The position numbers were made by a program, and so were the translations under genes. The notes below the pieces were generated by a model that saw only the letters and a list, made by a program, of their open reading frames with translations, searched no databases and was not told the DNA's origin. From assembly GCA_949295025.1 (NCBI GenBank), contig CASFJK010000001.1, positions 186,001 to 250,000 of the forward strand: DNA of 64,000 nt, given 5' to 3'. The stretch is from an uncultured Pseudomonadota bacterium. Lineage in GTDB: Bacteria; Pseudomonadota; Alphaproteobacteria; RF32; CAG-239. Every line of letters starts with the position of its first letter. The stretch's first letter is position 1. This document shows positions 37,989 to 54,275 of this stretch, in pieces.

Positions 37989-38080
37989 GGAGAGATGGCA
38001 GAGTGGTCGAATGCGGTTGACTCGAAATCAATTGTGCTCGGTAACGGGTACCTAGGGTTCGAATCCCTATCTCTCCGCCA
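37989..38080 (+). tRNA. tRNA-Ser (anticodon CGA), CCA encoded
   Basis: Class II tRNA: acceptor GGAGAGA / TCTCTCC, anticodon stem-loop TTGACTCGAAATCAA with CGA, a long variable arm (TGTGCTCGGTAACGGGTACCT) and T-arm AGGGTTCGAATCCCT, with CCA encoded. Its 3' end is the attachment site of the adjacent island. Confidence 0.96.
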
Positions 38081-38083
38081 TAA
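38064..38083 (+). repeat. Attachment site copy (attL) in tRNA-Ser
   Basis: TCCCTATCTCTCCGCCATAA, covering the T-arm end, acceptor, CCA and 3 nt beyond. The identical 20 bp occur at 54225-54244. Confidence 0.93.
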
Positions 38084-38154
38084 CAATTAAAGCCATTTGT
38101 TTTATCACAATTTTTAATGGTGCTAAACCTTGTTTTTTTAGGTGGTGCTATGGG

Positions 38155-40152
38155 GTGATACAGCAGATGGCTTTTTTATATCCAAGATTGATGCTCAGAA
38201 AACACACTTATTATATTAGAGTCCAAGTCCCAAAATCTCTCATTGATATTACAAAAAAGAAAAATATAATATATTCATTGAATACTAAGAATTATCAAGA
38301 AGCTCTATATAGGGTCAGAGAAGAATCCTACAAAGTGGATTTGTTCTTGAAACATTGTGGAAGAAGCAAGATGTATGTGGAAAATGGCAAAAAAATTTTT
38401 TTCAATGATGAGGATTATAAACACTTTTTAGTCTCAAGATGGGTATTTTTATTAAAAGAATTAGAAAAAAATGAAGCCAAAATTAAAAAAGGCATTGTTA
38501 CATATAAGGATTTGAGTTTCTACCAACCAGCTCAATTAGATGATGCAGATAGAGTTGAGGTTGTTGATACATATGATAATGATGGCAATCCTATTCAAAT
38601 ACTTAAAGAAGTTGTTGATGTGTGGGATGGCTATAAAATTAGAGAACCCAATAGTGATGTAGCTTATAACCCATCTGAAAATCATATGGAATATCAATTG
38701 TACCAATTCATTCTGCAAGAAATTCAGAAAATGAAGAATGAAGGCAAAATAGATTCTGATGTTGTTGACATATTGGAAGATGGGGGAGAATTGCCTTTCT
38801 TCAAAAATAAAACAGATTCTATATCAGAGTTAGATGATTTTTCTTCCAATTTTATTGGATGGCATAATTTATCTGATAGAATGAGAGAGTCTGAAAAATT
38901 GTTGTATGATAAAATTGAGAACATTAAAAATAAGACACCTGTTGAAATATCAATCTATTTTGAAAATATTTTAGCAATAGCAAGAGAAGTTATCAAGAAC
39001 TCATCAATGAATAGAAAAATTGAGGCTAAACTTCCTAATTATGAGAAATTACTACAAAAATGGTATGATTATCAACTAGCAAAGGGTAGTTCAGTTAAGG
39101 ATACCAAAAACCATATCTATAAAATTAATATTATTATTTCATTGTTAAATAACAAGAAAATTAAAGATATAACTAAAAAAGATATGAGAAATATTGAGCA
39201 GAAATTATTATTGTTGCCCAAAAATGCATCAGCCAAATATCCTAACCAAAAATTCAGTGATATTATTGAGAAAACAAAAAATAATAAGAATATCCCAAAA
39301 ATCAAGCCCATCACTGTTAGAGACTACATCTCTATGTTCAGTTCATTTTTAAATTTTTTGGTTGATGAGGAAATTTTATTGTCAAACCCTATCAGAGACT
39401 ACAAATTTAAATATGCTGTTGGGAAAAAAGAGGCCTATGAACCTTTTACAGATGAAGAATTAGCTTTAATTTTTAACCCTAAAACATTTCCTGAATATGT
39501 TGTGAAAAATGACACTAGCAAATACCCAGAGAGATTTTGGATTTTATGTCTTATCATCTTTTTAGGGTGCAGAGAAGATGAATTGTGTCAATTAGATGTG
39601 GCAGATATACAGTGTTTTAAAGGTGTTGATTGTATAGTTATTCAGCCATCATCTGATAAAGATAAAAAAACAAAAACTAAGCAAAAAAGGATATTACCAA
39701 TCCCTCAAAAAATTTTAGATATTGGCTTCCTAGATTATGTAAATAACAGGAAAAATGATAACTGTAAAAAGTTATTTAACCTCAAACATAATCCCCATAA
39801 TGGATATGCTCAGGAATTTGGTAGGTGGTTTGCCAGTTATCTGGACAAGATTGGTATAACTTCAGAGCAAAAAGTGTTCCATAGTTTTAGACACCTTATG
39901 AAAATGAACTATAGGAATAATGATATTTCTGATAGTGCCATTAAAATTATTGGAGGATGGTCTGATAATAATGGGGATGGGTTCAGTTGCTATGCTCAGG
40001 GGGCAATGGATATTGTTAAATTGAAGAAAATTGTTGATTCAGTTGATTTTCCAATGATTGATTTTGAGACTCTAAAGAATAGAACTGTTGAGGATATTGA
40101 CCCTGCTTTTAGGTCTAGAAGGAGACCCAGAAAATCTATTTTGGGAAAATAA
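38155..40152 (+). CDS. Tyrosine recombinase / integrase (665 aa)
   Basis: Site-specific integrase, presumably the enzyme that inserted the island. The N-terminal domain (YIRVQVPKSLIDITKKKNIIYSLNTKNYQEALYRV) is of the DUF6538 type found in long phage-like integrases. A core-binding SAM-like domain covers roughly residues 285-430. The catalytic domain shows Arg in LGCREDELCQLDVADI (about 470), HSFRHLMK (about 576) and the nucleophile Tyr in SCYAQG (about 613). The start is GTG 38155 or ATG 38167; no clear ribosome site decides. It lies 75 bp from the tRNA. Confidence 0.93.
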   Translation: MIQQMAFLYPRLMLRKHTYYIRVQVPKSLIDITKKKNIIYSLNTKNYQEALYRVREESYKVDLFLKHCGRSKMYVENGKKIFFNDEDYKHFLVSRWVFLLKELEKNEAKIKKGIVTYKDLSFYQPAQLDDADRVEVVDTYDNDGNPIQILKEVVDVWDGYKIREPNSDVAYNPSENHMEYQLYQFILQEIQKMKNEGKIDSDVVDILEDGGELPFFKNKTDSISELDDFSSNFIGWHNLSDRMRESEKLLYDKIENIKNKTPVEISIYFENILAIAREVIKNSSMNRKIEAKLPNYEKLLQKWYDYQLAKGSSVKDTKNHIYKINIIISLLNNKKIKDITKKDMRNIEQKLLLLPKNASAKYPNQKFSDIIEKTKNNKNIPKIKPITVRDYISMFSSFLNFLVDEEILLSNPIRDYKFKYAVGKKEAYEPFTDEELALIFNPKTFPEYVVKNDTSKYPERFWILCLIIFLGCREDELCQLDVADIQCFKGVDCIVIQPSSDKDKKTKTKQKRILPIPQKILDIGFLDYVNNRKNDNCKKLFNLKHNPHNGYAQEFGRWFASYLDKIGITSEQKVFHSFRHLMKMNYRNNDISDSAIKIIGGWSDNNGDGFSCYAQGAMDIVKLKKIVDSVDFPMIDFETLKNRTVEDIDPAFRSRRRPRKSILGK

Positions 40153-40456
40153 AATTTTTTTCATTTTATTTTTGCTTTTTGAAATATCTGTGTGGTATCT
40201 TAATATAAATAAATTTATTAGTATGAGGAAAGTCACACAGATAATTGTTGGTATTATTGTCTGTGAATACCAAAAATAGAACAGGCTTGCTATTTATTTT
40301 CCTCATACCCCACAGTATGGACTGAATGCCTAATGGCTACTTTCCATTGATTTTGCAGCAAAAAAATTAAAACAAAATAGCACCTAGAATAATCTAGGTG
40401 CTAAATCTAACCTTTTGCCAAATTATTAAAAAATTATATCAAAAAAAGGAATAATT
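40153..40456. other. Hairpin-rich non-coding region before the Rep-like gene
   Basis: No gene is seen. Several inverted repeats are nested: ATCTGTGTG...CACACAGAT, TATGAGGAAA...TTTCCTCATA and GGTATT...AATACC. A perfect 10-bp hairpin AGCACCTAGA-ATAA-TCTAGGTGCT (40379-40402) without a T-run follows. Location before a HUH Rep-like gene makes a replication or nicking origin plausible; a structured RNA is the alternative. Confidence 0.5.
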
Positions 40457-41005: not shown

Positions 41006-41027
41006 TTATATCACTAATTAAGGATTT

Positions 41028-41297
41028 ATGATGAATGAAGAATTAAAATTATTATATGAAATAGCAGATTGTTTAATAGCTGAAAAATTTATAAAAAGTT
41101 ACAGAAATTTTAGCCTAAATTATCTAAATAAATGTCCTCCATATCTAAGTGTTCTGAAGTATTTACATAAAAAACCAAGTTTAAGGACTTTGTCTTTTCT
41201 TTTATATAAGTTGAATATGCAAAAAATTTATCCAGAAGTTCAATCTCAATTACATTTAATAATTAAAAATAAATTAGCATCAAAGGACTTGATATGA
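41028..41297 (+). CDS. Small hypothetical protein (89 aa)
   Basis: Unrecognised, basic and helical (YEIADCLIAEKFIKSYRNFSLNYLNK). It has an AAGGA ribosome site before ATG 41028. It overlaps the ankyrin gene by 4 bp (ATGA junction), so both are translated from one message, probably together with the Rep-like gene 22 bp upstream. Confidence 0.65.
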   Translation: MMNEELKLLYEIADCLIAEKFIKSYRNFSLNYLNKCPPYLSVLKYLHKKPSLRTLSFLLYKLNMQKIYPEVQSQLHLIIKNKLASKDLI

Positions 41298-41962
41298 GGG
41301 AAGATGTTAATTTTGACAACTTAATAAGTAAAATAGATTTGATACTAAATTCACCCAAACCAATTCCAAACTTTATTAAAAAGGATAAAGAATTAGCTCA
41401 AATGTTGGAAGATTTGCAAGAAATTTCAGAATATGAGACACTCAATCAATTTGAGGAGTTATTTGATAAAGAGCCATTTTTGATGCAATTTTTGATAGGT
41501 GCTGATTTTACAAAACTTTTGAAAATTATAGATAGAACTACTATGAAATATGAGCATCTGGATGACTATACAGCTCTTCATATGATAGTGGTTAATCCTT
41601 GTATTGCTAATGTTGAAAAAACAGTAATTATTGATAGAATGCTGGAAATGGGTTGCAATATTAATCAAACATCAGCAAGAGGTGAAACAGCTCTATTTTT
41701 AGCAGTGAAGAGAAATAACAGAAAAATGATTGAATATTTGCTTCAAAAAGGAGCAAACCCAAATATTTCTAATAATTTGAGAATAACTCCAATGATGGTG
41801 GCAACATTTAATTCCCAACTCTATAATATGGCAATCCTCAAATTTTTTAATTCTCAAATGGGTGCAACCTGTACATCCTATCAGTTTGATGTTTTTGACA
41901 TAGCAGAAATAACCAAAATCTCAAATACAATGGAAGTCTTGAGGGATTTGAGAAGAAGTTAA
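41294..41962 (+). CDS. Ankyrin-repeat protein (222 aa)
   Basis: Residues about 95-190 hold two clear ankyrin repeats and a weaker one: DDYTALHMIVVNP, the long ARGETALFLAVKRNNRKMIEYLLQKGANPNIS and LRITPMMVATFNS. The N-terminal 90 residues are helical without a known domain. Ankyrin proteins bind other proteins; in mobile elements they can be effectors, inhibitors or immunity factors. Co-translation with the 89-aa protein suggests a pair. There is no secretion signal. Confidence 0.8.
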   Translation: MREDVNFDNLISKIDLILNSPKPIPNFIKKDKELAQMLEDLQEISEYETLNQFEELFDKEPFLMQFLIGADFTKLLKIIDRTTMKYEHLDDYTALHMIVVNPCIANVEKTVIIDRMLEMGCNINQTSARGETALFLAVKRNNRKMIEYLLQKGANPNISNNLRITPMMVATFNSQLYNMAILKFFNSQMGATCTSYQFDVFDIAEITKISNTMEVLRDLRRS

Positions 41963-41969
41963 TACTAAA

Positions 41970-42000
41970 TAAAAAAGCCAGAAATAAATCTGGCTTTTAG
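41970..42000. terminator. Bidirectional terminator
   Basis: Stem AAAAGCCAGA / TCTGGCTTTT between convergent ankyrin and serine recombinase genes. Confidence 0.88.
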
Positions 42001-42001
42001 T

Positions 42002-42592
42002 TTAAATAATAAATTCTGTTACATATCTATGAAGAGTAGTCCAGGTGCACCCCATTAATCTTGCTATTTCAGCTTTTGATACTTTTTTATCCAATAATTC
42101 TTTAATTTTATTATGTTTTTTCTTCAATTTTTTATAAGAAAACCCATAAGGTCTACCTAAATGTTTCCCCTCATTTTTCAATCTTTTTAATGATTCTTTT
42201 GTCCTCTGTGAAATTAGTTGTCTTTCAATTTCACTGGCAAGGGAAAAGGCAAATGCTAATACTTTACTCTGAATATCAGCCCCTAAATGATAGTTTTCTT
42301 TAACAGTTATAATTTCACACTCTTTTTCAAGACAAGTTTGCAAAATTCCCATAACTTCTAACATATTTCTACCAAGTCTTGAGATTTCAGTTGTGATTAC
42401 TATATCTCCTTTTTTGAGCTTATTTAACAACTTTCCCAATTTTCTTTGAGCCAAAGGTTTTCTTGATGAAATAATTTCCTCAACAAATTCATTTATGCAT
42501 AAATTATTTTTCTCTGAGAAATTTTTAAGTTCAAACTTCTGATTTTCACAATTTTGCAAATCAGTACTAACTCTAATATAACCATATATCAT
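42002..42592 (-). CDS. Serine recombinase (resolvase/invertase), 196 aa
   Basis: Small serine recombinase: catalytic Ser in GYIRVSTDLQN at the N terminus, then TTEISRLGRNMLEVM, FAFSLASEIERQLISQRTKESLKRLKNEGKHLGRP. A C-terminal helix-turn-helix follows (KVSKAEIARLMGCTWTTLHRYV). Length is typical of resolvases or invertases. It is divergent from the mod gene and shares a hairpin-rich regulatory gap with it. It may act as a resolvase, a DNA invertase or a regulator; no invertible segment is obvious. Confidence 0.9.
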   Translation of the reverse strand: MIYGYIRVSTDLQNCENQKFELKNFSEKNNLCINEFVEEIISSRKPLAQRKLGKLLNKLKKGDIVITTEISRLGRNMLEVMGILQTCLEKECEIITVKENYHLGADIQSKVLAFAFSLASEIERQLISQRTKESLKRLKNEGKHLGRPYGFSYKKLKKKHNKIKELLDKKVSKAEIARLMGCTWTTLHRYVTEFII

Positions 42593-42654
42593 ATTTAATC
42601 CTTTGTTATTACATTGATATTTATCAAAAATAACTATACAAAGGTTACAAAAAT

Positions 42655-42690
42655 AATAGCTAAACTAAATGTCCATCTAGTTTAGCTATT
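42655..42690. promoter_or_regulatory. Perfect 12-bp inverted repeat in the divergent recombinase/mod gap
   Basis: AATAGCTAAACT and AGTTTAGCTATT enclose the loop AAATGTCCATCT. Ten loop bases (AAATGTCCAT) are the exact reverse complement of ATGGACATTT at 42812-42821 in the mod leader. Operator or RNA interaction site. Confidence 0.6.
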
Positions 42691-42801
42691 ACAAATAATG
42701 GTATTATAAAATAATAAAAAATATATTAAAGCAAGTTATTTCCTTGTTTTTCATATAATTAAGGTGTTTTAAGAGAGGTTTCCTCATTTATCATAATTTA
42801 G

Positions 42802-42829
42802 CTCTCCATAAATGGACATTTGTGGAGAG
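42802..42829 (+). promoter_or_regulatory. Hairpin hiding the mod ribosome-binding site
   Basis: CTCTCCATAAAT-GGAC-ATTTGTGGAGAG folds into a 12-bp stem with one G-U pair. The ribosome site GGAGAG (42824-42829) is entirely in the right arm, 7 nt before ATG 42837. Confidence 0.65.
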
Positions 42830-42836
42830 TATGTCT

Positions 42837-44510
42837 ATGTCTTTAAAAGAAGAATATATTGCCAAACTTGATAAGATACCAACAGTATCATTCAACAAAG
42901 AACAAAAACAAATTGCTAAAACAATTATTGAAAATACTCCTGATAAAGATTTGGATGCTGTTTATGGTTTAATCACACAAAGAGTTAAGACAGGATTTGT
43001 TTTTGATGAAGCTCCTGAGGTAAATCATAATGCTGTTGCTCTTATTAAAGAAAATAGTACTTTAGGTATAAATGTTGATTTAGTGGGAAAACTTGAACAT
43101 AAGTTAATAATTGGGGAAAACTATGATGCTTTAAAAAATTTATGTGCCACTTATATAGATAAAAATGGCAAAGGTTTAATTGATGTTATCTATATTGACC
43201 CTCCATATAATACAGAAGCAACCAAAGAAGATGGAAATGATTATAAAGAAGAAGTTGAAGCTAGTAAATTTGTTTATAGAGATAAATTTACCAGAGATGG
43301 TTGGTTAAATATGATGAATGAAAGGTTAAAACTAGCCAAGAGATTATTAAGTGATTCTGGTGTCATTTTTATATCTATTGATGATAGTGAGCAGGCATAT
43401 TTAAAGGTATTATGTGATGAAATTTTGGGAGAAGATAATTTTATTGCCAATTTTATTTGGGAAAAAACACAACATTTTGGAAGACAAAAATTAAATAGTT
43501 ATACAAATGGTGATTATATTTTATGTTATGGGAAGAATTTAAAAAGCAATGGGTTAAAAGAACTTTTGGTTGAAAAAATAAATACTCAATTGTTAGATGC
43601 TCCACTATATAATGCCTCCAATAATACAAAAGTCCTTACATTTCCTAAAGGTTCTGTAAAATTTAATTTAAGAGATGGTATATATAATGAGACAACATCA
43701 TCTGATTATATATTGAAAAATCAAGTAAATGTTGTAAATGGAGTAAATGATAATGATTTTATGTTAGAATTTAAATCAAGATGGTCTGCAAAGACTGTAA
43801 AAGAAGAAATTGAAAAAGGAACAAAATTTTGGGTAAAGACACAGAGTTTTGCTATAAGAGCCATCTATTCTAATGATAAAGAGGCCAAAGTGTCTCCAAG
43901 ACAAATAATTTTTACTAATAAGAACAATCCATACTGTACATACAGCAGATATGGAACAAAAGTTGGTACTAATGAAGAGGCATCTAGTGAATTAGAGTGC
44001 ATTTTAAAAAATAAATTATTTTCATACCCCAAACCTGTATCTTTAATAAAATATCTATTATCTTTATTATTTGATAATAGCCAACAAAAAACTAAAATAG
44101 ATGCCATTATCCTTGATTTCTTTGCTGGTAGTGGAACAACTGGGCAGGCTGTAATGGAGCTAAATGAAGAAGATGGAGGACAAAGAAAGTTTATTTTAGT
44201 TACCAATAATGAAAATGGTATTGGTGAAAAGATAACAAGAGAAAGACTTTATAGGGTCATCAATGGAGAAGGTAGTCAAGGTGAAAAGATTGATTGGATT
44301 TACACCAAAGAGAAGCCATATTTGACCAATAATAGTGTAAGGGTATTTAATATTGAAACAGAAGAGCTGACCTTACAAGATTTAGATAAGGCAGAAAAAT
44401 TAAAAGACAAAGCAAAATTAGAATTTAAGAAACTTAATGAAAATTATAATATAAATAATGATTTTGACATCTATAATGAATTGTCAGCACTTAATCCACT
44501 AAAAAAATAG
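42837..44510 (+). CDS. Type III restriction-modification methyltransferase (Mod)
   Basis: Adenine-specific DNA methyltransferase that also supplies target recognition. It has the beta-class order: catalytic DVIYIDPPYNTEA near residue 121 precedes the AdoMet motif ILDFFAGSGTTGQAV near 430. The variable target-recognition region lies between. The 557-residue length is on the short side but normal for type III Mod. ATG 42837 is preferred over GTG 42822 and ATG 42831 because of GGAGAG spacing. It is followed 11 bp later by res, forming one operon. Confidence 0.93.
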   Translation: MSLKEEYIAKLDKIPTVSFNKEQKQIAKTIIENTPDKDLDAVYGLITQRVKTGFVFDEAPEVNHNAVALIKENSTLGINVDLVGKLEHKLIIGENYDALKNLCATYIDKNGKGLIDVIYIDPPYNTEATKEDGNDYKEEVEASKFVYRDKFTRDGWLNMMNERLKLAKRLLSDSGVIFISIDDSEQAYLKVLCDEILGEDNFIANFIWEKTQHFGRQKLNSYTNGDYILCYGKNLKSNGLKELLVEKINTQLLDAPLYNASNNTKVLTFPKGSVKFNLRDGIYNETTSSDYILKNQVNVVNGVNDNDFMLEFKSRWSAKTVKEEIEKGTKFWVKTQSFAIRAIYSNDKEAKVSPRQIIFTNKNNPYCTYSRYGTKVGTNEEASSELECILKNKLFSYPKPVSLIKYLLSLLFDNSQQKTKIDAIILDFFAGSGTTGQAVMELNEEDGGQRKFILVTNNENGIGEKITRERLYRVINGEGSQGEKIDWIYTKEKPYLTNNSVRVFNIETEELTLQDLDKAEKLKDKAKLEFKKLNENYNINNDFDIYNELSALNPLKK

Positions 44511-44521
44511 GATAATAGATT

Positions 44522-46756
44522 ATGGAACTGACATCATTACAATTAAAGACAACAACAGATATCTTAAATTTATATAACCCAAATGAAAAGGTTATATGTG
44601 AATTTAAATCTCCAACAGGTAGTGGTAAAACTTTAATGGCATCTTATTTTATATCTGCCTTAATTGAACAGAATCCAAATGATAAGTTTATTTTTGTCAT
44701 AGCAACCCCTTCTTCATCATCACTACCATACTTTTTTGAACAAAAAATAAACAAATACAAGGTTGATTTGCCATATTCAAATTTTGAGGCAGAGTATATC
44801 CAATCTCCATCATCTGCCAAAACAGATAAAACAGAAAGCATAGAGAAAATAATACCTGAACAAAATAAGGTTTATATTTTTGGAAAAGCTTCTTTTGGAA
44901 AAGGAAGAATATTAAGTGAATATGGAATCATTGATGATTTTGTAGTGTCAGCAATAGATAAAGGTTATAAACTCATTTATATTAGAGATGAGGCTCATAT
45001 TGGTGGTGAAAAACAAACCAAAGATGAAAATTTTGAAACATTAATGAATAACAATGCTTCCTTTGTTCTGAAAATGACAGCAACACCAGATAATAACAAT
45101 CCTTTTACAAAAAAAGTAATATTAAAAGAAAGCCAATTAAACAATCCTGTTCTAAATGATGGCAAGTGGCTATTAAAAACAATCCCAGTATCATTATTAG
45201 ATAAAGATTTAGAAGACACAGAAATCTTGGAAGATGCTATTAAACATTTTAAAAAAATAAAAGAGGATTATGCCAAACTTAATATTGGTATTCATCCTGC
45301 AATGCTTATTCAAGTGGATAATGATGCTCCAACAGATAAAATTAAATCCCAAAAATTTAAAGAGGCACTGATTGAAATAAAAAAAACATTTGATGCTCAT
45401 AATATTGCTTGGGTTCAATACTTTGGAAACAATGATAAGGATTCAAATAGAGTTTATAAAAAAGATTTTACTTTGGATGAAATTACTGAAAACAATAACA
45501 TCATTGATGCTATTATATTTAAAATAGGTCCTTCAACAGGTTGGGATATTCCAAGAGCAAATATGCTTATTCAATTAAGAAATGTATCTTCTTCAAGTCT
45601 TAATATTCAAACTTTAGGAAGAATTAAAAGAAATCCATATCCAAATCTTGAATGGAATGAAACAACATCAAAATATTATATCTATTCTAATACCCAAAAA
45701 ACAAATGATGATGTAAGTGAATATAATTATAAGGTTAGAGATAAATTTTCTACTGAAACATTTTTATCTATAGATATAGAAAATAAAGCAGAAATTAAAG
45801 ATTCTAAATCCAATGAGGAATTTAAAAAGAATTTTAGCTCTTGGCTATATGGGGTGGAAAATCCAATTTTACAAGAAGTAGAGAGTACATTTATTGATAA
45901 TCACAAGACATATAGAAAAGTTTTAAGTACTGCAAAAGGTAATCAAATTTACACAACAATAACAAATCCATTTATCTTTTTAAGAGACTACAAAAGGTTT
46001 ATAACTGTAAATAAGCAATTGTGTGATTTAATAAAACCAATCACAGATATTTTTTGTGATAAACATAAGATTCAAAAAAAATTTCTAAATATAATATTAT
46101 TGAATAGCCATAAGAAAGATATATTAAACATTATCTCAAAAACAAGAACAAGAAAGCCAAAATACAAGATTACAGAACATCCTTATAATCCTGTCTTTTA
46201 CAAAGAGATTTATGAAAAAGACCAAGAAAAAAAGAAAATTTCAAAAAGAGATTATCTCTTTGGCATAAATGAAGATGATATGCTGAATGGAAATCAGCAA
46301 CCACTAGATTCTACCCCAGAAAAAGTTGTATTTAATTTAATACAAAATTATACAGAAGATTATGAAGGTATACATATATGGGCAAAAAATCTAACAGCAT
46401 CAAATATTTTTGGAGAATATTTAGATGATATGCTTAATGTTAAAAAAAGTTATTTTGACTTCATATTGAAATTTGAGAATGGCTTCTATCTTTATATTGA
46501 AGTGAAAGGAATACCGGATATCAATGCTGATAAAACAGAATTATTGAAAAGTGCTTATTCTGATTATTTTAATAAAAGAATTGATGATTTATTTTCTCCC
46601 AAATTAGCTATAGCTGTGTGGGAAGTTAATACTACAAATAATAACTATTCTATACATTCCTCAGTGTATTATGATAAACAAACAATCACAGAAAACTTAA
46701 ATAAATTCTCTGCAGAGCAATTGTTGGATAAATTAGCCAATTTAAATATAAAATAA
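44522..46756 (+). CDS. Type III restriction endonuclease subunit (Res)
   Basis: The 744-residue protein is a superfamily 2 helicase-nuclease. Walker A lies in FKSPTGSGKTLMAS (about residues 28-41), the DEAH box in YIRDEAHIGGE (about 155), and motif III in KMTATPDNN. Helicase C-terminal motifs are IFKIGPSTGWDIPRANMLIQLR and TLGRIKRNP. A PD-(D/E)xK-type nuclease occupies the C terminus (YFDFILKFENGFYLYIEVKGI, about 640-665). It cuts DNA when complexed with Mod at unmethylated sites. All key motifs appear intact. Confidence 0.92.
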   Translation: MELTSLQLKTTTDILNLYNPNEKVICEFKSPTGSGKTLMASYFISALIEQNPNDKFIFVIATPSSSSLPYFFEQKINKYKVDLPYSNFEAEYIQSPSSAKTDKTESIEKIIPEQNKVYIFGKASFGKGRILSEYGIIDDFVVSAIDKGYKLIYIRDEAHIGGEKQTKDENFETLMNNNASFVLKMTATPDNNNPFTKKVILKESQLNNPVLNDGKWLLKTIPVSLLDKDLEDTEILEDAIKHFKKIKEDYAKLNIGIHPAMLIQVDNDAPTDKIKSQKFKEALIEIKKTFDAHNIAWVQYFGNNDKDSNRVYKKDFTLDEITENNNIIDAIIFKIGPSTGWDIPRANMLIQLRNVSSSSLNIQTLGRIKRNPYPNLEWNETTSKYYIYSNTQKTNDDVSEYNYKVRDKFSTETFLSIDIENKAEIKDSKSNEEFKKNFSSWLYGVENPILQEVESTFIDNHKTYRKVLSTAKGNQIYTTITNPFIFLRDYKRFITVNKQLCDLIKPITDIFCDKHKIQKKFLNIILLNSHKKDILNIISKTRTRKPKYKITEHPYNPVFYKEIYEKDQEKKKISKRDYLFGINEDDMLNGNQQPLDSTPEKVVFNLIQNYTEDYEGIHIWAKNLTASNIFGEYLDDMLNVKKSYFDFILKFENGFYLYIEVKGIPDINADKTELLKSAYSDYFNKRIDDLFSPKLAIAVWEVNTTNNNYSIHSSVYYDKQTITENLNKFSAEQLLDKLANLNIK

Positions 46757-46904
46757 ATTTACAGTGTTTTATTCAGATTAAGCTGTAAATTTAGAGTAGA
46801 GGCTGATTTAACAATTTTAAAACTGTAAAGTTGAGGTTAAAATACTTGACAATTTTACAGTTTTTATCTATTGTAAAGCTATGTATAAGATTTTAACTTT
46901 ACAG
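46756..46904. promoter_or_regulatory. Array of TTTACAG/CTGTAAA sites over the second recombinase promoter
   Basis: Five copies in either orientation: 46758-46764, 46783-46789, 46823-46829, 46854-46860 and 46898-46904. They form two inverted repeats, AATTTACAG/CTGTAAATT and AAAACTGTAAA/TTTACAGTTTT. One copy sits in the spacer of a predicted promoter (TTGACA 46846-46851, 17 nt, TATTGT 46869-46874), and the last touches the ribosome site. Probable operator array. Confidence 0.6.
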
Positions 46905-46912
46905 GTGATGAT

Positions 46913-47464
46913 ATGATTTTTAATTATAAGAGAGTATCTACAATAGAGCAAAGCACAGAAAGACAGTTATTAAATATCAAGTGTGATAGAGAATTTGAAG
47001 ACAAGCTATCTGGAAAAGACAGAAATAGGCCTCAACTAGAATTATTGCTTTCTATTATTAGAGAAGGAGACCTCATCAATGTGCATTCTATGGACAGATT
47101 GGCTAGAAATACCAGAGATTTGTTAAATTTGGTGGAAGAAATAACATCAAAAGGTGTCACTATAAAATTCCATAAGGAAAATCTGACTTTTGAAGTAGGT
47201 AAAAATGACCCATACCAAAAATTGATGATGACAATGCTTGGAGCAGTTGCTGAACTTGAGAGAAGTTTAATCCTTGAAAGACAAAGAGAAGGAATTGCTT
47301 TGGCTAAAATGAAAGGCAAATATAAGGGAGGAAAGCATAAATTATCTCCTCAAGAGGTTTCAGAACTTAAAGAGCTAGCTAATTCTCAAAAAATTTCTCT
47401 CTCAGAATTGGCAAGAAAGTATCATATATCCAGACCTACTTTGTATTTATATCTGAAAAATTAA
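46913..47464 (+). CDS. Serine recombinase (resolvase family), 183 aa
   Basis: N-terminal catalytic domain with Ser in NYKRVSTIEQSTERQ, then SMDRLARNTRDLLNLV and MTMLGAVAELERSLILERQREGIALAKMKGKYKGGK. A C-terminal HTH (KISLSELARKYHISRPTLYLYL) follows. The Arg of the usual Y-x-R-x-S motif is Lys here (YKRVS). It is distinct from the island's other recombinase, being closer to Tn3/Hin-type resolvases. The TTTACAG array over its promoter suggests autoregulation. Confidence 0.9.
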   Translation: MIFNYKRVSTIEQSTERQLLNIKCDREFEDKLSGKDRNRPQLELLLSIIREGDLINVHSMDRLARNTRDLLNLVEEITSKGVTIKFHKENLTFEVGKNDPYQKLMMTMLGAVAELERSLILERQREGIALAKMKGKYKGGKHKLSPQEVSELKELANSQKISLSELARKYHISRPTLYLYLKN

Positions 47465-47700
47465 ACTCCAACATCCTAGTGCTGTTGGAGCTATTTAATG
47501 TAACATATATAATTATTGAAACAAATTCATATTTATTTATCTGAAAAGCCTACTTTTGATAAATTTTTTTCAAAAAAATAAAAAAAGAGGGCTCCTTTTT
47601 ATTATTTGTTATGATAGATTTTTTATGGATGCTAAAAACTGTATAAACAGATAGGGTGGAGTTGGTGTTTTTGCCACTCCACTTTGTTTAATAAAAAAAA
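47465..47700. other. Intergenic region with two hairpins, no gene seen
   Basis: CTCCAAC...GTTGGAG directly after the recombinase (about 47466-47491) could end that transcript. A second stem GTGGAGT...ACTCCAC (about 47658-47683) lies at the end of the convergent radical SAM operon. Neither has a strong T-run. Confidence 0.45.
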
Positions 47701-48771
47701 TTACAGAGAACATAAATTATTACATAAGTTTAGCTTGCATTTTCCAACACATTTATTTTTTAACAGGCAAGAAGAACAGCTATCTATTTGAATGTTCCTA
47801 AACTGATTAAACACCTCTGAATCCCATACTTCTTTAATGGTTGAATTTTGCATATTAACCTTAAAATCACCTCTATCACAATCAAAAGAACAGGGATAAG
47901 CATTTAATTCTGAATCTATGTACATAGAAAATCTGGCTGCTTCACAAAAATCTAAGGAATTTTCTAAAACAGATTGGCATTTTCTTAGCAATGCTGGTGT
48001 GCAGCAAGTATCAAACCCTATTCTGAAAGAAAAATTATTTAATTGTACTAAATCTAAAAAATGAATAAATTCCTTATTCTGCAAGGATATTTCATTAATT
48101 TTATTTCCTAATCCAGTTCCTTTGTATAATAAAAATATAATAGCATTAATTCCCTGAGGAAAAAGATTATGTTCAAGCCTATATACAGCATCTTTTATGC
48201 TATTTTTAGAAAGGACATAATGAATATTTGTTCTGCATCCAGCTTTTACCAATTTATTAATTGCTTCTATTGTCATTGGATTAGATTCTTGACCATCTTT
48301 TAATGTAGTATAAAAAGAAACAGCTACAGCTCCACAATATGTTTTCATAGCAGATATTTCATTATCTGACATAAAGTATCCAGTTGTAGTTAAATTAGGG
48401 ACAATATTATATTTTCTAGAAAGCTTCAGAATTTCTAGAAAATCAGGATGCTTGTTGGGGTCTCCTGCTCCACCTAAGGCAATTTGAAATGTCTTGCCAG
48501 AGGCCTCTTTAACAATTCTTTGAAAATCAATTAGCTTCATATGAGGTTTATGCTTTTTTATTGCACTTTGGTAACAATCAACACCTGCTTTTTTACAAAT
48601 TCCTAATGAAGCAACATGACAACTTCCCATAATTCCAACATCTATTAATTCAGGAAAAGACCTTTGTACTGGGGTGGATTGAGTTCCTTCAATATCTCCT
48701 CTATAAAGGAAGCCATTTTTGGGGTTAAAAATTTCAAAGAAATTATATTTTGTATCTTTATAAATAATCAT
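47701..48771 (-). CDS. Radical SAM/SPASM-like enzyme with atypical CX7CX6C motif (356 aa)
   Basis: Radical SAM enzymes cleave S-adenosylmethionine at a [4Fe-4S] cluster. After ELIDVGIMGS the candidate cluster cysteines are C51, C59 and C66 (CHVASLGIC...DCYQ), spaced CX7CX6C and not CX3CX2C. Next come IALGGAGDP (the GGE-like SAM-binding segment), LTTTGYFMSD and VAVSFYTTL. The C-terminal part has a SPASM-like Cys cluster: CCTPALLRKC, AYPCSFDCDRGDF and SCSSCLLKNKCVGKC. SPASM enzymes usually modify peptides. It is the last gene of a six-gene operon, 3 nt after the small FVTNSSS protein, its likely substrate (inference). Confidence 0.78.
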   Translation of the reverse strand: MIIYKDTKYNFFEIFNPKNGFLYRGDIEGTQSTPVQRSFPELIDVGIMGSCHVASLGICKKAGVDCYQSAIKKHKPHMKLIDFQRIVKEASGKTFQIALGGAGDPNKHPDFLEILKLSRKYNIVPNLTTTGYFMSDNEISAMKTYCGAVAVSFYTTLKDGQESNPMTIEAINKLVKAGCRTNIHYVLSKNSIKDAVYRLEHNLFPQGINAIIFLLYKGTGLGNKINEISLQNKEFIHFLDLVQLNNFSFRIGFDTCCTPALLRKCQSVLENSLDFCEAARFSMYIDSELNAYPCSFDCDRGDFKVNMQNSTIKEVWDSEVFNQFRNIQIDSCSSCLLKNKCVGKCKLNLCNNLCSL

Positions 48772-48774
48772 GTC

Positions 48775-49155
48775 TTACCAAATACAATTTTGCCCATCTA
48801 GAAAAAAATCATCATCATCTATTATAAAAGAATCTGTTGTAAAAAAACTAGTAATGATATTATCATCTGAATTAGTTTTTCCTACTAATATATAATATCC
48901 TGAATTTTTATAGCTTTTCCATTTGTTGGCAGTGCTTTTACCAAACATTTTCCTAACTTTATTATATGTTAATTTCTCTTCTTGATTTATTCCTTTTAAT
49001 ATGCATGAAGCTAATTGAATTCCTACCTCTTTTAGAGGAGAATCTTCTAAAAATCCTAATTTTTTGTACAGATTATCAACAGTGAGTTCTTCTTTACTCA
49101 TAATTATGAAATTAGTTGAAGAGCTATTTGTAACAAAACCATTTCTAATTTTCAT
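48775..49155 (-). CDS. Small protein starting MKIRNGFVTNSSSTNFII (126 aa), possible radical SAM substrate
   Basis: The start at 49155 is set by GGAGAAAG five nt upstream and puts the Ser/Thr/Asn-rich motif GFVTNSSSTNF exactly at the N terminus. I recall N termini of the type RNGFVSNSSSSSF in many unrelated hypothetical proteins of phages and bacteria; this is memory, not a search. The rest has no known domain; the tail is acidic (FIIDDDDFFLDGQ) and ends NCIW. It overlaps the upstream gene by 11 bp and is followed 3 nt later by the radical SAM gene, so modification of this protein is a strong possibility. Confidence 0.7.
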   Translation of the reverse strand: MKIRNGFVTNSSSTNFIIMSKEELTVDNLYKKLGFLEDSPLKEVGIQLASCILKGINQEEKLTYNKVRKMFGKSTANKWKSYKNSGYYILVGKTNSDDNIITSFFTTDSFIIDDDDFFLDGQNCIW

Positions 49156-49558
49156 TAAAACTTTCTCCAAAAAAATCATTAAACAAATTTAGAAAAAATT
49201 CATCCTCTGTCAGAAATTGTACATTATATTCATTAACATCATTAAGATTGGTATAATAACAATTATGTTTTTTAAAATAACAAATCTCTTTTTTAAAAAG
49301 TTTATGTCGTATTTTTAAATAGTCAGAAAAGCTATCAAATTCTTTTGAATAATACTTATGATACTCTTTTTTTAAACTAACTGCATATTTAGCATATCTA
49401 TTAAACATTTTTTCTACAATCCTAGCAGCATAAGAACCTTTTTTAACCTGAGCCATTTTTAAAAAAGAGTTTAGATTGCTATTCTTTTTAGTCTTTATGT
49501 AATATAGAAAAGCTTCATCATAATCATTTTGATTCTTGATTTTTAAATATTTATACAT
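49145..49558 (-). CDS. Hypothetical protein (137 aa)
   Basis: Unrecognised, Lys- and Tyr-rich, helical protein (EKMFNRYAKYAVSLKKEYHKYYSKEF). It has no membrane segment or known motif. It overlaps the NTPase gene by 8 bp and the small FVTNSSS gene by 11 bp, so it is translationally coupled to both. In this operon it may be an adaptor or effector, but the sequence gives no direct hint. Confidence 0.7.
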   Translation of the reverse strand: MYKYLKIKNQNDYDEAFLYYIKTKKNSNLNSFLKMAQVKKGSYAARIVEKMFNRYAKYAVSLKKEYHKYYSKEFDSFSDYLKIRHKLFKKEICYFKKHNCYYTNLNDVNEYNVQFLTEDEFFLNLFNDFFGESFNEN

Positions 49559-51692
49559 TTTCCTTTTTTAATTCCCTGATAAAATTCTGACATCTTTGTT
49601 TTAAAATGCTACAGCTACTTTTTTTTGTAATATTATCTAATATGATTTCAATATTTTTATATTTTTTAATCAAATCATACAAAAAATTTTTTTTATGATA
49701 ATCATCTGATAAATAACAAATCAAAATCAATTGTATAAAGATATCTAAATTATCTGCTAAAAGTTTTCTATCTACTACTTCTAAAGATTTACTGCTTACT
49801 ACTAATAAAGCACCTATATTTTCATAATTCATTAAGATATTATAAAATATATCCAAAGAATAACAACCATGTTGCAACTCATTAATTACTAAAAATTTAA
49901 ATAATATAAATATATCATTATTTGCTAATCCAAATCCTGTATATTCTTTAAATACTGATAATATATAAATATATTCAAAATCTAACAACTCTTTGTTACA
50001 GTTGAAAATAATGTTAAGTCCCATATTAACAAAAGTTTTGTTTTCATTATTGTTTATGGAGAATATTCTTTCTTTCAAAAATTTGTTAATAATTTCCAGA
50101 CATAGAATAGTGTTGTTCTCAGCTCTAAAATGAGCATATGAATAAGTCAGGATTCCTTCAAATGGAGAAAGATGAGATTGTTGCATTTTAGTCAATGTAT
50201 CAAATAATAATTGATAGTGTTTCATATTTTCATTTTGACAATTGGATATTAAATATTTTGCTATGCAATAATCTCTTAACTCATCAAATACAAAATAAAA
50301 CTCTTCATCAGCCTCTTCACTAATAAACCCTTTATGTTTTATAATTTTTCTGCTCATTAATAAGTTTTCATCACATATTTTTCTAAATTCATTTAATTGA
50401 AAAGAGGTTAAATTTAATCTACTTCCACAAATTTTATCATAATTTTCTTGTTCAACCATTTTTGAGATTAATCTGTTGATATATAAACATATGTCAGGAA
50501 CTTTTGTTTCTAGGTTATGAATAAAATTTTTATAAATTTCATATCTATTTAAATTAACAAAATTGTCTTTTTTATTTTTACAATATTCAAAAAAGATTCT
50601 CATTAGCAATAAAGAATTCATCAAATAATGAAAAATATTATAACTAATTTTTCCTTTAAAATTATAATAAGCCTTGTAAGTTTGATATAAAAAAGAAACT
50701 GTCCTAGGATTTATATTAGAACTTAAATAATAATTTTCCATATCATATACAAAAGGAGAAATTTCTGAATCAATAAAAATTTTATTATACCTTTCTTCAA
50801 AGTATTCACTTCTGCAAGATATTAAAATTTTTATTGTTCTAAATTTTAATAAGTTATGTAACAATTTAGGCAAAGTATTTTTAAATTCAGAACTATCATT
50901 TTCATTAATAGCATCTATTACTATGAATAAATTAGTTCTCAATATAATATTTTTAATATTAAGTAAATTCAAAGAAAAATTTGGAAATATTTTAATTGGC
51001 AAGTGTAACTTTTCTAACAAATCAGCCTCTACATTAGACAAATCTCTAGAATTTACAAATACACAAGTATTTTTTAACTTTATAATTAAAGAAACTAAGT
51101 TACAAAGAATACTGGTTTTCCCATTTCCAGCACTTCCTTTCAATAATACCAGTCTCTCTGTTGCAAGGACTACTTTTCTCAAAATTTTTTCTAATTGATA
51201 TTTTTTTAAGGAGCAGTTATGTGTATTATCTTTTTCTCCAACATCTAAATTTATTAACAGCTCTTTGTTACAGGGATATTGGTTATAAAGTTCTTTATTT
51301 TTTTCTATACATTTTTTTATTTTGTTAAGAGACATAATTTTATTTAATTTAAATGAAATAGCTTTATTCTTAATATGAGTCTTAAGGAAATTGCCATTTT
51401 CATCATTATATAAGTTATTAAAATCATTAATGATTCTAGTCTTCCACTTTCCTCCATATACAAAATATCTTAAAGATTCTTTTGTCTCCCCTAATTCAAC
51501 ATATAAATCTTCTAAATATTTTTCTTCTTTTTTAAATTTATCAATTAATTTTTGAGAGTCTTTATTAACTAGTTTTCTATTAAAAAATAGATTTATAAAG
51601 GGAAGAATCAAAATGAAAAGAAGTGTTTCAATATTAGAGAATAAATCTTTAATATCTATTATGTTTTGTAAATAACTTGGTAATTCTATCAT
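49551..51692 (-). CDS. Membrane-anchored NACHT/STAND-type NTPase (713 aa)
   Basis: An N-terminal transmembrane helix (LLFILILPFINLFF, about residues 23-37) is followed by a charged linker. The NTPase has Walker A GSAGNGKT (186-193), Walker B LFIVIDAINEND (around 255-266) and sensor ILISCRSEYFEERY. Asp-Ala-Ile-Asn-Glu after four hydrophobic residues is of NACHT/STAND style. The 400-residue C-terminal helical part is probably the sensor. Such proteins oligomerise on sensing phage components. Its start directly abuts the rloB-like stop, so it is part of the same operon. Confidence 0.82.
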   Translation of the reverse strand: MIELPSYLQNIIDIKDLFSNIETLLFILILPFINLFFNRKLVNKDSQKLIDKFKKEEKYLEDLYVELGETKESLRYFVYGGKWKTRIINDFNNLYNDENGNFLKTHIKNKAISFKLNKIMSLNKIKKCIEKNKELYNQYPCNKELLINLDVGEKDNTHNCSLKKYQLEKILRKVVLATERLVLLKGSAGNGKTSILCNLVSLIIKLKNTCVFVNSRDLSNVEADLLEKLHLPIKIFPNFSLNLLNIKNIILRTNLFIVIDAINENDSSEFKNTLPKLLHNLLKFRTIKILISCRSEYFEERYNKIFIDSEISPFVYDMENYYLSSNINPRTVSFLYQTYKAYYNFKGKISYNIFHYLMNSLLLMRIFFEYCKNKKDNFVNLNRYEIYKNFIHNLETKVPDICLYINRLISKMVEQENYDKICGSRLNLTSFQLNEFRKICDENLLMSRKIIKHKGFISEEADEEFYFVFDELRDYCIAKYLISNCQNENMKHYQLLFDTLTKMQQSHLSPFEGILTYSYAHFRAENNTILCLEIINKFLKERIFSINNNENKTFVNMGLNIIFNCNKELLDFEYIYILSVFKEYTGFGLANNDIFILFKFLVINELQHGCYSLDIFYNILMNYENIGALLVVSSKSLEVVDRKLLADNLDIFIQLILICYLSDDYHKKNFLYDLIKKYKNIEIILDNITKKSSCSILKQRCQNFIRELKKENV

Positions 51693-52286
51693 TTACATAG
51701 TTCCATTCTTTAATAACTCAGAAATTACTTTATGCATATTTGTATAAGGATTAGAGTTTTCATCTAAATCCAATTCTTCTGCATTTTTTATAGCAAAATC
51801 CAAACCTTCCTTTAAATCATTGAAGATATCTGATTTGGCTTTTAGCTGAGGCAATTCATAAGCTGTTTTGAATTTTTTATTATATAAATTTCTAAAATAT
51901 TCACAGCATTCTTTAGCATTTAAAAATGATTTACTGGTTTTTTGAATATGAAGTAAAAGCCAATACTCATAACAAGGAACAGAAACAGCTTCAATAAAAC
52001 CTTCTGTCCTACATTCTTGTATTACCCTTTTGAATTCAACATCAGAACTATCATCCTTGTCAAAAAAACAGTAAATTTTGACAAACTCCTTATCTATAAA
52101 GGAATTATATTTTTCTTTTGCTGTTCTTAAAACATTATCAGGACTTGTGCCATAAGCATTTTCTGCTTTAATGTTAATTCCTTTTGCTTTTCCCAATCCT
52201 TGCATATAGTATTTGGAAGATTTGCTATCTTCACAAACAAAAAGATGTAAAGGTTGTAACTGTCTATTTCTTTGAGACCTTGCCAT
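51693..52286 (-). CDS. RloB-like TOPRIM-type protein (197 aa)
   Basis: Matches the RloB family seen next to RloA ATPases. An early Glu in LHLFVCEDSKSSKYYMQGL, the acidic pair in VKIYCFFDKDDSSD and VPCYEYWLLLHI give a TOPRIM-like metal site. RloA/RloB pairs resemble the AbiL abortive-infection pair and, in architecture, PARIS (ATPase plus TOPRIM effector). It is thus the probable nuclease effector controlled by the ATPase encoded 3 nt upstream. Confidence 0.85.
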   Translation of the reverse strand: MARSQRNRQLQPLHLFVCEDSKSSKYYMQGLGKAKGINIKAENAYGTSPDNVLRTAKEKYNSFIDKEFVKIYCFFDKDDSSDVEFKRVIQECRTEGFIEAVSVPCYEYWLLLHIQKTSKSFLNAKECCEYFRNLYNKKFKTAYELPQLKAKSDIFNDLKEGLDFAIKNAEELDLDENSNPYTNMHKVISELLKNGTM

Positions 52287-52289
52287 TAT

Positions 52290-53444
52290 TTAGTCTCCAT
52301 TTATATGAGGAACAGCACCAAATATACCATACATATATTCATTATAAAAAGTGCCTTTTCTTCTTTTAATCTGTTTGAAGTCACTTAATGAATACAATTC
52401 ACTGGAATATCCATTTTCTTTTGATGTAAACCAAATCTGGTCTCTGGTTAAGTGTTCTCCATCCATTAAATAATGAGCATGAGAGGTAAAAATAAGTTGA
52501 GCTCCCTTAGGATTTGTTTGGGGTGAATTGAACAAATCTACCAAATACTTTACTAAATGAGGATGAAGAGAATTATCCAACTCATCAATAAAGAGCACAC
52601 TTCCTTTATCTAACACCCAGAAAATATCTTCAGACAGACACAGTAACATCTGAGTTCCATCAGATTCTTCTAACATAAAGTCAAAAGTAATCTCCTGTCC
52701 ATCCTCACTTTTATGTGTTGAATACAAACCATCTCTATTTACAATTAATTTTGTAATAGGAATATCTGCTTTTCTTAAAAATTCAGCTTTTTTCTGTAAA
52801 TTAGATTTAGAAGACAATATCTTATCTTTCAAAACATCTTTATAATCAATGCTAAGAATATCAATATCCATAATCCAATTATATATATCTAAAATATGCT
52901 GGTCTTGATTATTTCTATTGTTGACTAACTCACTGACAAGAAGTCTTGTCTTAATAGTCTGTTTTGCTATTTCTTTATCTAAACCATAAGGGCTATTAAA
53001 ATCTTCAGAAGTCCTTTTAAATAAGCACTTCTCTCTTTTATCTTCTTCTAATTCTGTATAATAAGCTTCTTCTTTTACAATTCCATTATCATTCAATTCC
53101 ACAAAATATCTATATGCTGTTTGATTTTTTATGAATTCAAATTCAAAAGTTGAATTTTTATTCTGCTCACTTAACTTATAAGCAGGAACTTCCATTTGCT
53201 CATTAAATCTCTTTAAATAACTTACTTCCATTAATCCCTGAAAATAAGAAACAGCATGAATAAAACTTGATTTTCCTGAAGCATTAGCTCCAAAAATTGC
53301 AGATGTTCTATAAACAACAGGAGATTTTTTATAACCTGTCTCTATTATATTATCTACTTCTCCATTATTGGTTAAGGGCTCCATAGAAAATTCAACTTCA
53401 TCCTTAAAACTTTTATAATTGCTAAATTTAAAACTTATCAGCAT
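52290..53444 (-). CDS. RloA-like ABC/AAA-type ATPase (384 aa)
   Basis: SMC/ABC-like ATPase of the AAA_21 type. N-terminal LISFKFSNYKSFKDEVEFSM and Walker A IFGANASGKSS (52-59) precede a coiled-coil/helical insertion. The signature region is followed by Walker B GSVLFIDELDNSLHPHL and the His switch IFTSHAHYLM. It pairs with the RloB-like protein and heads the six-gene operon. By analogy with AbiL and PARIS it would sense infection and release or activate the TOPRIM partner (inference). Confidence 0.88.
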   Translation of the reverse strand: MLISFKFSNYKSFKDEVEFSMEPLTNNGEVDNIIETGYKKSPVVYRTSAIFGANASGKSSFIHAVSYFQGLMEVSYLKRFNEQMEVPAYKLSEQNKNSTFEFEFIKNQTAYRYFVELNDNGIVKEEAYYTELEEDKREKCLFKRTSEDFNSPYGLDKEIAKQTIKTRLLVSELVNNRNNQDQHILDIYNWIMDIDILSIDYKDVLKDKILSSKSNLQKKAEFLRKADIPITKLIVNRDGLYSTHKSEDGQEITFDFMLEESDGTQMLLCLSEDIFWVLDKGSVLFIDELDNSLHPHLVKYLVDLFNSPQTNPKGAQLIFTSHAHYLMDGEHLTRDQIWFTSKENGYSSELYSLSDFKQIKRRKGTFYNEYMYGIFGAVPHINGD

Positions 53445-53487
53445 ATAAACACCATTCTTTGCAAATTTTTAACATAGATATGCATCT

Positions 53488-53516
53488 AATATATGAAATA
53501 TATATAAATAAGTCAA
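53488..53516 (-). promoter_or_regulatory. Predicted promoter of the six-gene defence operon
   Basis: On the - strand TTGACT (53511-53516), a 17-nt spacer and TATATT (53488-53493), about 44 nt before the rloA-like start. Confidence 0.6.
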
Positions 53517-53643
53517 GTTATTATCAAATAAGATTTTGTGTAACATATTGCTAAATCTCAACAGTTTCTAATATAGATTCATTAATTTTAAATAGAATTA
53601 AAATACTATTCTCTAAATAATAGATAAAGGAGTATAGTAAAAA

Positions 53644-54057
53644 ATGAATGAAACAGAGCTTGCTTGGATAACTTATAGTTTATGGTTTGTTATTGGACTT
53701 CTTGTATATCTTTATGAGCAAAATGAAATTATTATAAAAAACAAAACAATAAAAAAAATCCAAATAAAAGTATCTAAAATTTATGCAAAAATGAATGTGT
53801 TATATAATGTAAAATTTATGATGCTATTATTAATTCTGTATATTTTCATTCCTCCTTTATTTATTGAGTCTTTTTTAACTTCTATATTTGGTGAAGCCTA
53901 TGGAGTATGTTTTAGAGATGAAATATGTAGTTACTCTTTGGTCTCATTACTTATACATCTTTTTATTACTGCAATTTTAGTTTGTTTATTCATAAATAAA
54001 AAGTATGTCCAACACTATAGCCATATATATAAAGCAAAAAAATACAATAGTTTTTAA
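53644..54057 (+). CDS. Small membrane protein (137 aa)
   Basis: Three hydrophobic segments (AWITYSLWFVIGLLVYLY; MMLLLILYIFIPPLFIESFL; LLIHLFITAILVCLFI), with a basic loop between the first two. No family is recognised. It lies divergent from the defence operon near the far end of the island. AAGGAG lies about 9 nt before ATG 53644. It could be an accessory of the defence operon or cargo of the element. Confidence 0.65.
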   Translation: MNETELAWITYSLWFVIGLLVYLYEQNEIIIKNKTIKKIQIKVSKIYAKMNVLYNVKFMMLLLILYIFIPPLFIESFLTSIFGEAYGVCFRDEICSYSLVSLLIHLFITAILVCLFINKKYVQHYSHIYKAKKYNSF

Positions 54058-54224
54058 CTAATTATTTTTTTTGGAATTCATTATTTAAAATAAAAGAAAA
54101 CCATTTATAAAAATTATTATTGCATTCAAGTGCTAAATAGTGTATATTTTGAGGAAAATTGGAGTGATAGAAATGTCAATTTTGTGTTGTTAAAACAAAT
54201 GGTTATGTGGCAAAAATTTTACAG

Positions 54225-54244
54225 TCCCTATCTCTCCGCCATAA
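54225..54244 (+). repeat. Attachment site copy (attR)
   Basis: Exact 20-bp copy of the tRNA-Ser 3' end (38064-38083), not linked to a complete tRNA. Marks the right border of the island. Confidence 0.93.
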
Positions 54245-54275
54245 AAAAAGCCTGCAAAAGCAGGCTTTTTTATGA
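54243..54275. terminator. Terminator, probably the original one of tRNA-Ser
   Basis: Stem AAAAGCCTGC / GCAGGCTTTTTT beginning right after the attR CCA. In the uninterrupted chromosome it would directly follow the tRNA; it also serves the convergent gene ending at 54277. Confidence 0.85.

Follow-up and report, generated by a model that had tools for sequence, protein, structure and literature searches.

A four-gene cassette and its conservation

A 64,000-nucleotide (nt) stretch from an uncultured alphaproteobacterium of the CAG-239 lineage (assembly GCA_949295025.1, contig CASFJK010000001.1, positions 186,001 to 250,000; hereafter the window, numbered from its first letter) carries on its minus strand four adjacent genes, at 47701–51692, that look like an undescribed phage-sensing immune system because, in an order that is kept, they combine a receptor-like ATPase with a radical SAM enzyme and with a small protein that has a phage-type tag. 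In the direction of reading, they encode a STAND/NACHT NTPase (49551..51692) with an Avs2-like core and one N-terminal hydrophobic segment; a mostly helical conserved partner of 137 amino acids (aa), here called X (49145..49558); the FVTNSSS protein, or NSSS (48775..49155), which is 126 aa long, has an MKIRNGFVTNSSSTNF start, and ends in Trp; and a radical SAM/SPASM enzyme, or rSAM (47701..48771), the presumed maturase of NSSS, whose first Fe-S motif reads CX7CX6C and not CX3CX2C. An earlier note on this DNA had placed them at the end of a run of six minus-strand genes (47701–53444) with spacings of +3, 0, −8, −11, and +3 nt, and all six open reading frames are present as described. The NSSS frame opens at 49179 and contains a conserved internal ATG at 49155 that matches the start of its relatives; the −11 nt spacing between X and NSSS is counted from this codon.

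The four genes recur together far beyond the window. One genome scan with an rSAM alignment gave 72 loci (these, like the plasmid and viral loci, are cited by L-numbers), and 65 of them hold NTPase, X, NSSS, and rSAM genes in that order on one strand. With the rSAM as its anchor, the scan gives no rate for the NTPase on its own. L019, L058, and L062 start less than 0.5 kb from a contig end and are therefore uninformative on upstream genes. In L062 (263–4662), four NSSS paralogues whose bodies resemble those of the cassettes come after an rSAM gene; the contig end lies on the upstream side, and NTPase and X may be missing only because that end cuts the upstream genes. According to record titles, complete cassettes are found in Bacillota, Alpha- and Gammaproteobacteria, delta-type groups, Campylobacterota, Bacteroidota, Verrucomicrobiota, Chloroflexota, and Planctomycetota, as well as in methanogenic archaea, and complete cassettes also lie on five viral contigs. 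In a tblastn search of plasmids, the NTPase matched seven records (Agrobacterium, Rhizobium, and Rhodobacter), and the rSAM matched the same seven plus a Vagococcus plasmid whose rSAM is unrelated. Five of these eight records were opened, and four show an NTPase, a small protein, an FVSNSSS protein, and an rSAM, in that order and without rloAB, the remaining two genes of the six-gene run. X is unannotated in L004, where a shorter X-like frame was found, and the NTPase of L006 is split into two frames.

The arrangement is also conserved in detail: in 71 of 78 rows, X and NSSS overlap by 4, 11, or 17 nt. When pairwise distances are correlated among the rSAM, X, the NTPase core, and the NSSS body, r is 0.80–0.92, against a maximum of 0.25 in 500 permutations; this set comprised 59 of 79 rows after 20 were dropped as duplicates, as cut or broken copies, or for want of a located Walker A motif. 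Judged by these distances, the four proteins diverge together. In the pair L040 and L072, identity is 74% for the rSAM, 36% for the NTPase core, 28% for X, and 44% for the NSSS body, and the N-terminal domains of the two NTPases differ (NNH5 versus PNP_UDP_1). By sequence comparison, then, this is a conserved module with a kept gene order, co-diverging proteins, varying N-terminal domains, and, as described below, a viral linkage of NSSS-type proteins with the rSAM.

Cassette proteins and their phage relatives

The core of the NTPase is related to Avs2. The window protein (713 aa) matches the PADLOC Avs2 model at 1.5e-19 (best stretch 271–466 of 1504), all seven relatives scanned match it at 1e-31 to 1e-17, and an NTPase profile matches the solved Avs2 chain 9o4e at 2e-9. 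Because the best stretches in those seven relatives end by position 808 of 1379–1504, the cassette NTPases show nothing that matches the Avs2 C-terminal half, the part that senses phage proteins. The description of the window protein as membrane anchored fits a hydrophobic stretch at residues 17–35. Among genome copies that have a located Walker A motif, the ten closest to the window include nine with one such segment, which is also seen in L063 and L064; L013, whose called start looks wrong, is the copy near the window without it.

N-termini elsewhere are of other kinds. Typing of the 65 genome cassettes, with profiles built from some of the copies that they typed, gave 23 SMEK/Mrr-like and 11 trypsin-like N-termini and four with one shared unassigned domain, and Pfam added PNP_UDP_1 in L071 and L072, DUF4062 in L080, and NNH5 in L040. 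The remaining 23 have no assigned type, and some of these are truncated. SMEK_N was supported by Pfam in both copies scanned (L005 and L027), and the SMEK-containing profile matches the solved Mrr domain of a prokaryotic Argonaute at 1e-36. DUF4062 proteins are reported to be TIR-like NADases in defense (PMC13174449). PADLOC reports Avs1b for L061 and L065. A gene for a metallo-β-lactamase (MBL)-fold nuclease lies just upstream of all 11 trypsin-like copies, and a twelfth precedes L054, which has a late-starting NTPase frame. One MBL protein was tested, that of L026, and it matches LmuA, Avs1a, and reverse transcriptase (RT)-associated models. This protease-nuclease pair is reported to have been acquired repeatedly by antiviral systems, among them certain Avs, Lamassu, Hachiman, and DRT representatives (PMC12799240); the main text of that paper mentions neither NACHT nor radical SAM.

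The window rSAM carries a SPASM domain (PF13186, 27.6 bits versus a cut-off of 21.5), and the nearest solved relatives of its profile are 5v1q (“Radical SAM”), PqqE, and SkfB, which places it, by profile comparison, nearest to the peptide-modifying SPASM enzymes. It falls below every NCBIfam equivalog cut-off listed. Identity with prokaryotic viperin was considered and rejected (NCBIfam viperin, 15.2 bits versus 180; PADLOC pVip, 6e-6). Most cassette rSAMs have the canonical CX3CX2C motif, which the window protein and its clade fail to match: the first motif is mostly CX5-7CX6C or CX5CX3C in the window, in its relatives from Clostridia, and in one viral group of rSAMs, and the remaining viral rSAMs show CX3CX2C or still other spacings. 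In a midpoint-rooted FastTree phylogeny of 97 rSAMs, the group with unusual spacing forms a clade of 27 tips (support, 0.938) that mixes rSAMs of viral contigs with those of bacterial loci without the NTPase and takes in L020, L022, L023, L024, and the canonically spaced L087; ten window-type cassette rSAMs form their own clade (0.999) inside it. Unusual cysteine spacing was observed in the window (47701–48771), L009–L024, L081–L085, L090, L106, L111, L113, L118, L122, and L123.

Among 72 distinct cassette NSSS proteins, the N-terminus mostly reads MK[IV][RK]x[DG][FY][VI][ST]NSSST[SN][FY]. Residues S11, S12, and T14 are present in all 72, as is N10, which the search pattern demanded. The C-terminal Trp is found in 62 of 65 cassette proteins, the other three ending in R, I, and Y, and in only 2 of 160 motif proteins outside cassettes. 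AlphaFold gave NSSS a mean predicted local distance difference test score (pLDDT) of 86.7, with the tail predicted at low confidence, since its first ten residues score 53; the body is predicted to be folded and the tail is possibly flexible. X was modeled with a pLDDT of 81.8. Neither X nor NSSS has a Pfam match over the cut-off or an NCBIfam or PADLOC match. In PHROGs, the rSAM lies near phrog_7293 (7e-23) and NSSS near phrog_7397 (1e-4), both families of unknown function.

The connection of the motif with phages was absent from the earlier note. Outside complete cassettes, 35 of the loci L001–L127 contain motif proteins, 160 distinct ones in all; 29 of these loci are viral and account for 150 of the proteins. 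Clustering of the bodies gave 73 groups, 52 of them with a single member, and with the motif removed, 13 proteins retain a cassette-NSSS-like body (one in L019, four in L062, and eight in seven viral loci); a control with reversed bodies gave none. A viral scan anchored on the motif yielded 74 loci with 1–14 motif proteins each, and 56 of them contain an rSAM of the cassette family in the fetched stretch (8-kb flanks), as do 27 of 35 loci from a scan anchored on cassette NSSS (7-kb flanks). A ThyX-anchored control, likewise with 7-kb flanks, gave an rSAM in 1 of 28 loci, namely, the ThyX query's own contig, which has motif proteins. Against this control, Fisher p is 1e-11 for the 74-locus scan and 1e-9 for the 35-locus scan, with the qualification that the viral loci are not all independent because some contigs recur. 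In phage records, rSAM relatives occur in 171–172 of 50,697, most of them phages of Klebsiella, Enterobacter, Cronobacter, and Citrobacter; the matches listed include RB43, Lw1, KP15, and Miro. Coliphage Lw1 has its rSAM as gp161 and two proteins that start MKIRSGFVSNSSSSSF, gp111 and gp116, about 20 kb off; in Vibrio phage D479, a motif protein lies 1.4 kb from the rSAM. In L122, L104, L105, L113, L123, L170, and other IMG/VR loci, up to 14 different proteins begin with a common motif some 18 residues long, a single radical SAM gene usually lies nearby, and some of the bodies appear zinc-ribbon-like by eye.

Neighboring genes and the integrative element

The two genes ahead of the cassette encode RloB (AbiLii-like; 51693..52286, minus strand) and RloA (an AbiLi-like ATPase; 52290..53444, minus strand), both of which are neighbors outside the conserved cassette. 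RloB matches PF13707 at 99 bits and AbiLii at 2.7e-19, and RloA matches AAA_21 at 101 bits and AbiLi at 1.7e-83, so the resemblance to AbiL that had been pointed out earlier holds. Among the stretches fetched, some of which end at contig ends, relatives of RloA and RloB stand together beside the cassette in the window only; the only other RloA match, in L056, is weak (1e-11) and without RloB. The single promoter predicted for all six genes is there (TTGACT-17-TATATT, 53516–53488), but the window contains 53 such sites versus a mean of 59.8 in shuffled sequence, which makes them no commoner than there, so a transcript shared by the six genes is no more than plausible. We regard rloAB as an AbiL-like system in its own right, located on the same integrative element as the cassette and perhaps transcribed with it.

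The element is 16.2 kb long, is associated with tRNA-Ser, and spans 38064–54247. Its putative attL (38064..38086, plus strand) is a 23-nt repeat at the 3′ end of tRNA-Ser(CGA), and its putative attR (54225..54247, plus strand) is 22/23 identical to that copy (one mismatch); no further copy with up to five mismatches was found in the window. A tyrosine integrase gene (38155..40152, plus strand; DUF6538 and Phage_integrase) adjoins the first repeat copy, and a type III restriction-modification pair (Mod and Res; 42822..46756, plus strand) lies in the same element, so the mobile setting and the nearby restriction system proposed from the sequence are both borne out. Two serine resolvases and one ankyrin protein are also encoded, together with a 182-aa protein without a Pfam match (40457–41005) and a 137-aa membrane-like protein divergent from rloA (53644–54057). 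In the genus, the rSAM was found in the window's own genome only (1/7), and in the phylum, so was the full NTPase (1/299), two other genomes matching its core alone (frames of 1404 and 1566 aa). As examples of context elsewhere, with no count attached, L009 adjoins Fic and GmrSD genes, and L020 lies near a type I restriction system.

Proposed function, alternatives, and known systems

We favor, with appreciable doubt, the view that the four genes at 47701–51692 form a self-contained STAND immune cassette in which an NSSS protein modified by the rSAM provides, in trans, the part that senses or licenses. The Avs2-type NTPase, which lacks the long C-terminal half of Avs2, would bear an exchangeable N-terminal killing module, a membrane segment in this copy. 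The rSAM would modify the conserved NSSS tail (MK[IV][RK]x[DG]FV[ST]NSSSTSF), and modified NSSS, together with X, would act in trans as a sensor or licensing subunit of the NTPase, the complex either keeping the NTPase off or making it competent. Phage infection may then alter the state of NSSS or X so that the NTPase assembles and its N-terminal effector kills or arrests the cell, acting at the membrane in the window copy. Chemical modification of NSSS, its role as a sensor in trans, and an antiphage outcome are what we infer from this arrangement. The defense reading of the earlier note thus gains from family resemblance and from the varying effector domains, although it has no known phage phenotype to go with it.

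Several observations weigh against this proposal. The window NTPase scores 24.6 bits against NACHT, just below the Pfam cut-off of 26.7, and of the 17 relatives scanned, just two exceed that cut-off (L027, 35.5; L080, 31.7), with 15 failing; of three trypsin-like copies scanned, Trypsin_2 is over its Pfam cut-off in L061 only, below it in L065, and absent from L028. Structure comparison gave neither X nor NSSS a clear match or a recognizable fold. The cassette is rare, NSSS being found in the phylum in the window's own genome only (1/398). L020, L022, and L023, each with 7 kb on both sides, have an rSAM and a motif protein without NTPase or X, and L024, on a 3.8-kb contig, is perhaps another case, so this pair also serves elsewhere. 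Conversely, 18 of 74 and 8 of 35 viral loci are without an rSAM in the fetched stretch, some of them near contig ends, and they include loci rich in motif proteins (L170, with 14, and L108, with 8). NSSS need not be an immune sensor. In L023 (4886–8370), the rSAM-NSSS pair directly follows a dynamin-family GTPase gene (PF00350, 93 bits) and possibly serves another effector there.

Of the other explanations, a guard arrangement is doubtful: cassette NSSS would be a decoy that mimics the tagged proteins of large phages, and alteration of the decoy by a phage rSAM or another tag-acting factor would trigger the NTPase. Phages do share the N-terminal motif and a related rSAM with the cassettes, the eight viral proteins with cassette-like bodies (none in the reversed control) point the same way, and the window-type rSAMs nest within a clade shared with viral and NTPase-less enzymes. 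However, all seven plasmid records found by the NTPase and all five NTPase-bearing viral contigs found by NSSS have an rSAM of their own, which disfavors a pure decoy because the cassette's own rSAM would be needless, and no phage of a cassette-carrying host was identified. A general stress or cell-fate module that is not specific to phages is unlikely; no phage trigger is known, and like effector domains occur in other conflict systems, but the cassette is carried by plasmids, by five viral contigs, and by an integrative element that also holds a restriction system, and its motif is linked to phages.

Slightly less credible still is that the rSAM and NSSS make a peptide toxin or signal, as a ribosomally synthesized and post-translationally modified peptide, which the NTPase regulates or counters. 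A SPASM rSAM beside small proteins that have their N-terminal motif in common and vary in the rest is reminiscent of precursor families, but neighbor clustering at 69 loci (top 14 clusters) revealed no constant exporter or peptidase: the MBL nuclease is the commonest neighbor (11), and the next clusters have four loci each, one of which looks ABC ATPase-like by eye. Moreover, NSSS is predicted to be a folded 126-aa protein with a C-terminal Trp that is nearly always kept, and domains of killing type are already present on the NTPase. That all six genes form one defense system, with RloA and RloB as sensors or effectors of the NACHT-rSAM unit, was the principal claim of the earlier note and is now very improbable. 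The shared strand and the 0–3 nt spacing in the window speak for it, but rloAB is not kept beside the cassette at any other complete copy in the fetched stretches, some of which end at contig ends, and its products match AbiL; the note's own alternative, two adjacent systems, is the correct one. The note would have counted a lack of any joint occurrence of the four downstream genes in other genomes as a refutation, and they do occur jointly there, in genomes without rloAB.

Beyond the proposed immune cassette, we tentatively raise, as a possibility that we would not call probable, that large phages use an undescribed post-translational tag, with a shared N-terminus on up to 14 proteins that otherwise differ and a dedicated rSAM, which bacteria and archaea have co-opted as the trigger of a STAND receptor, so that the cassette would watch phage protein modification. 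If the reading of the cassette is right, a chemically modified partner protein would widen the means of sensing open to STAND immune receptors, and there would be a first lead on a protein family, so far unassigned, of large phages, T4-like ones that are tractable in the laboratory among them. The cassette is compact, its order is kept over many phyla, and its effectors are recognizable; the question of the trigger is therefore directly testable.

No description of the cassette appeared among the literature matches listed, a set outside which most subscription papers and bioRxiv preprints lie, and the motif strings gave one unrelated match and no use in the present sense. Among known systems, RloAB/AbiL is represented at 51693–53444 by an RloB domain beside an AbiLi-type ATPase, and it differs from the four-gene cassette, with which rloAB has no linkage outside the window in the stretches fetched. 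The rSAM shares a SPASM domain and radical SAM core with peptide maturases (5v1q, PqqE, and SkfB) but, judging from the predicted fold of NSSS, its presumed substrate would be a folded intracellular protein, and the first motif in the window clade is mostly CX5-7CX6C. In FtsH ternary conflict systems, too, modification of a stand-alone protein by a radical SAM enzyme has been proposed, but as described in PMC7159879 these systems are built on a MoxR-vWA-FtsH base without a NACHT NTPase. The bNACHT proteins have a comparable NACHT-type P-loop with an N-terminal effector, although the window NTPase and 15 of 17 relatives stay under the Pfam NACHT cut-off; the terms “radical” and “SMEK” do not occur in the main text of the bNACHT25 paper (PMC12169576). 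There is likeness to Avs/AVAST, chiefly Avs2, in the NTPase core and exchangeable N-terminal domains, and to Avs1 in the trypsin-MBL pair (Avs1a/Avs1b-like parts) of 11 of 65 cassette copies. Avs2 binds a phage protein, such as terminase, directly. The cassette NTPase is shorter, its best stretches falling short of the Avs2 C-terminal half, and it is accompanied by three extra conserved genes (X, NSSS, and rSAM), for the last of which PADLOC offers only a weak viperin match; X and NSSS may replace, in trans, the C-terminal half of Avs2.

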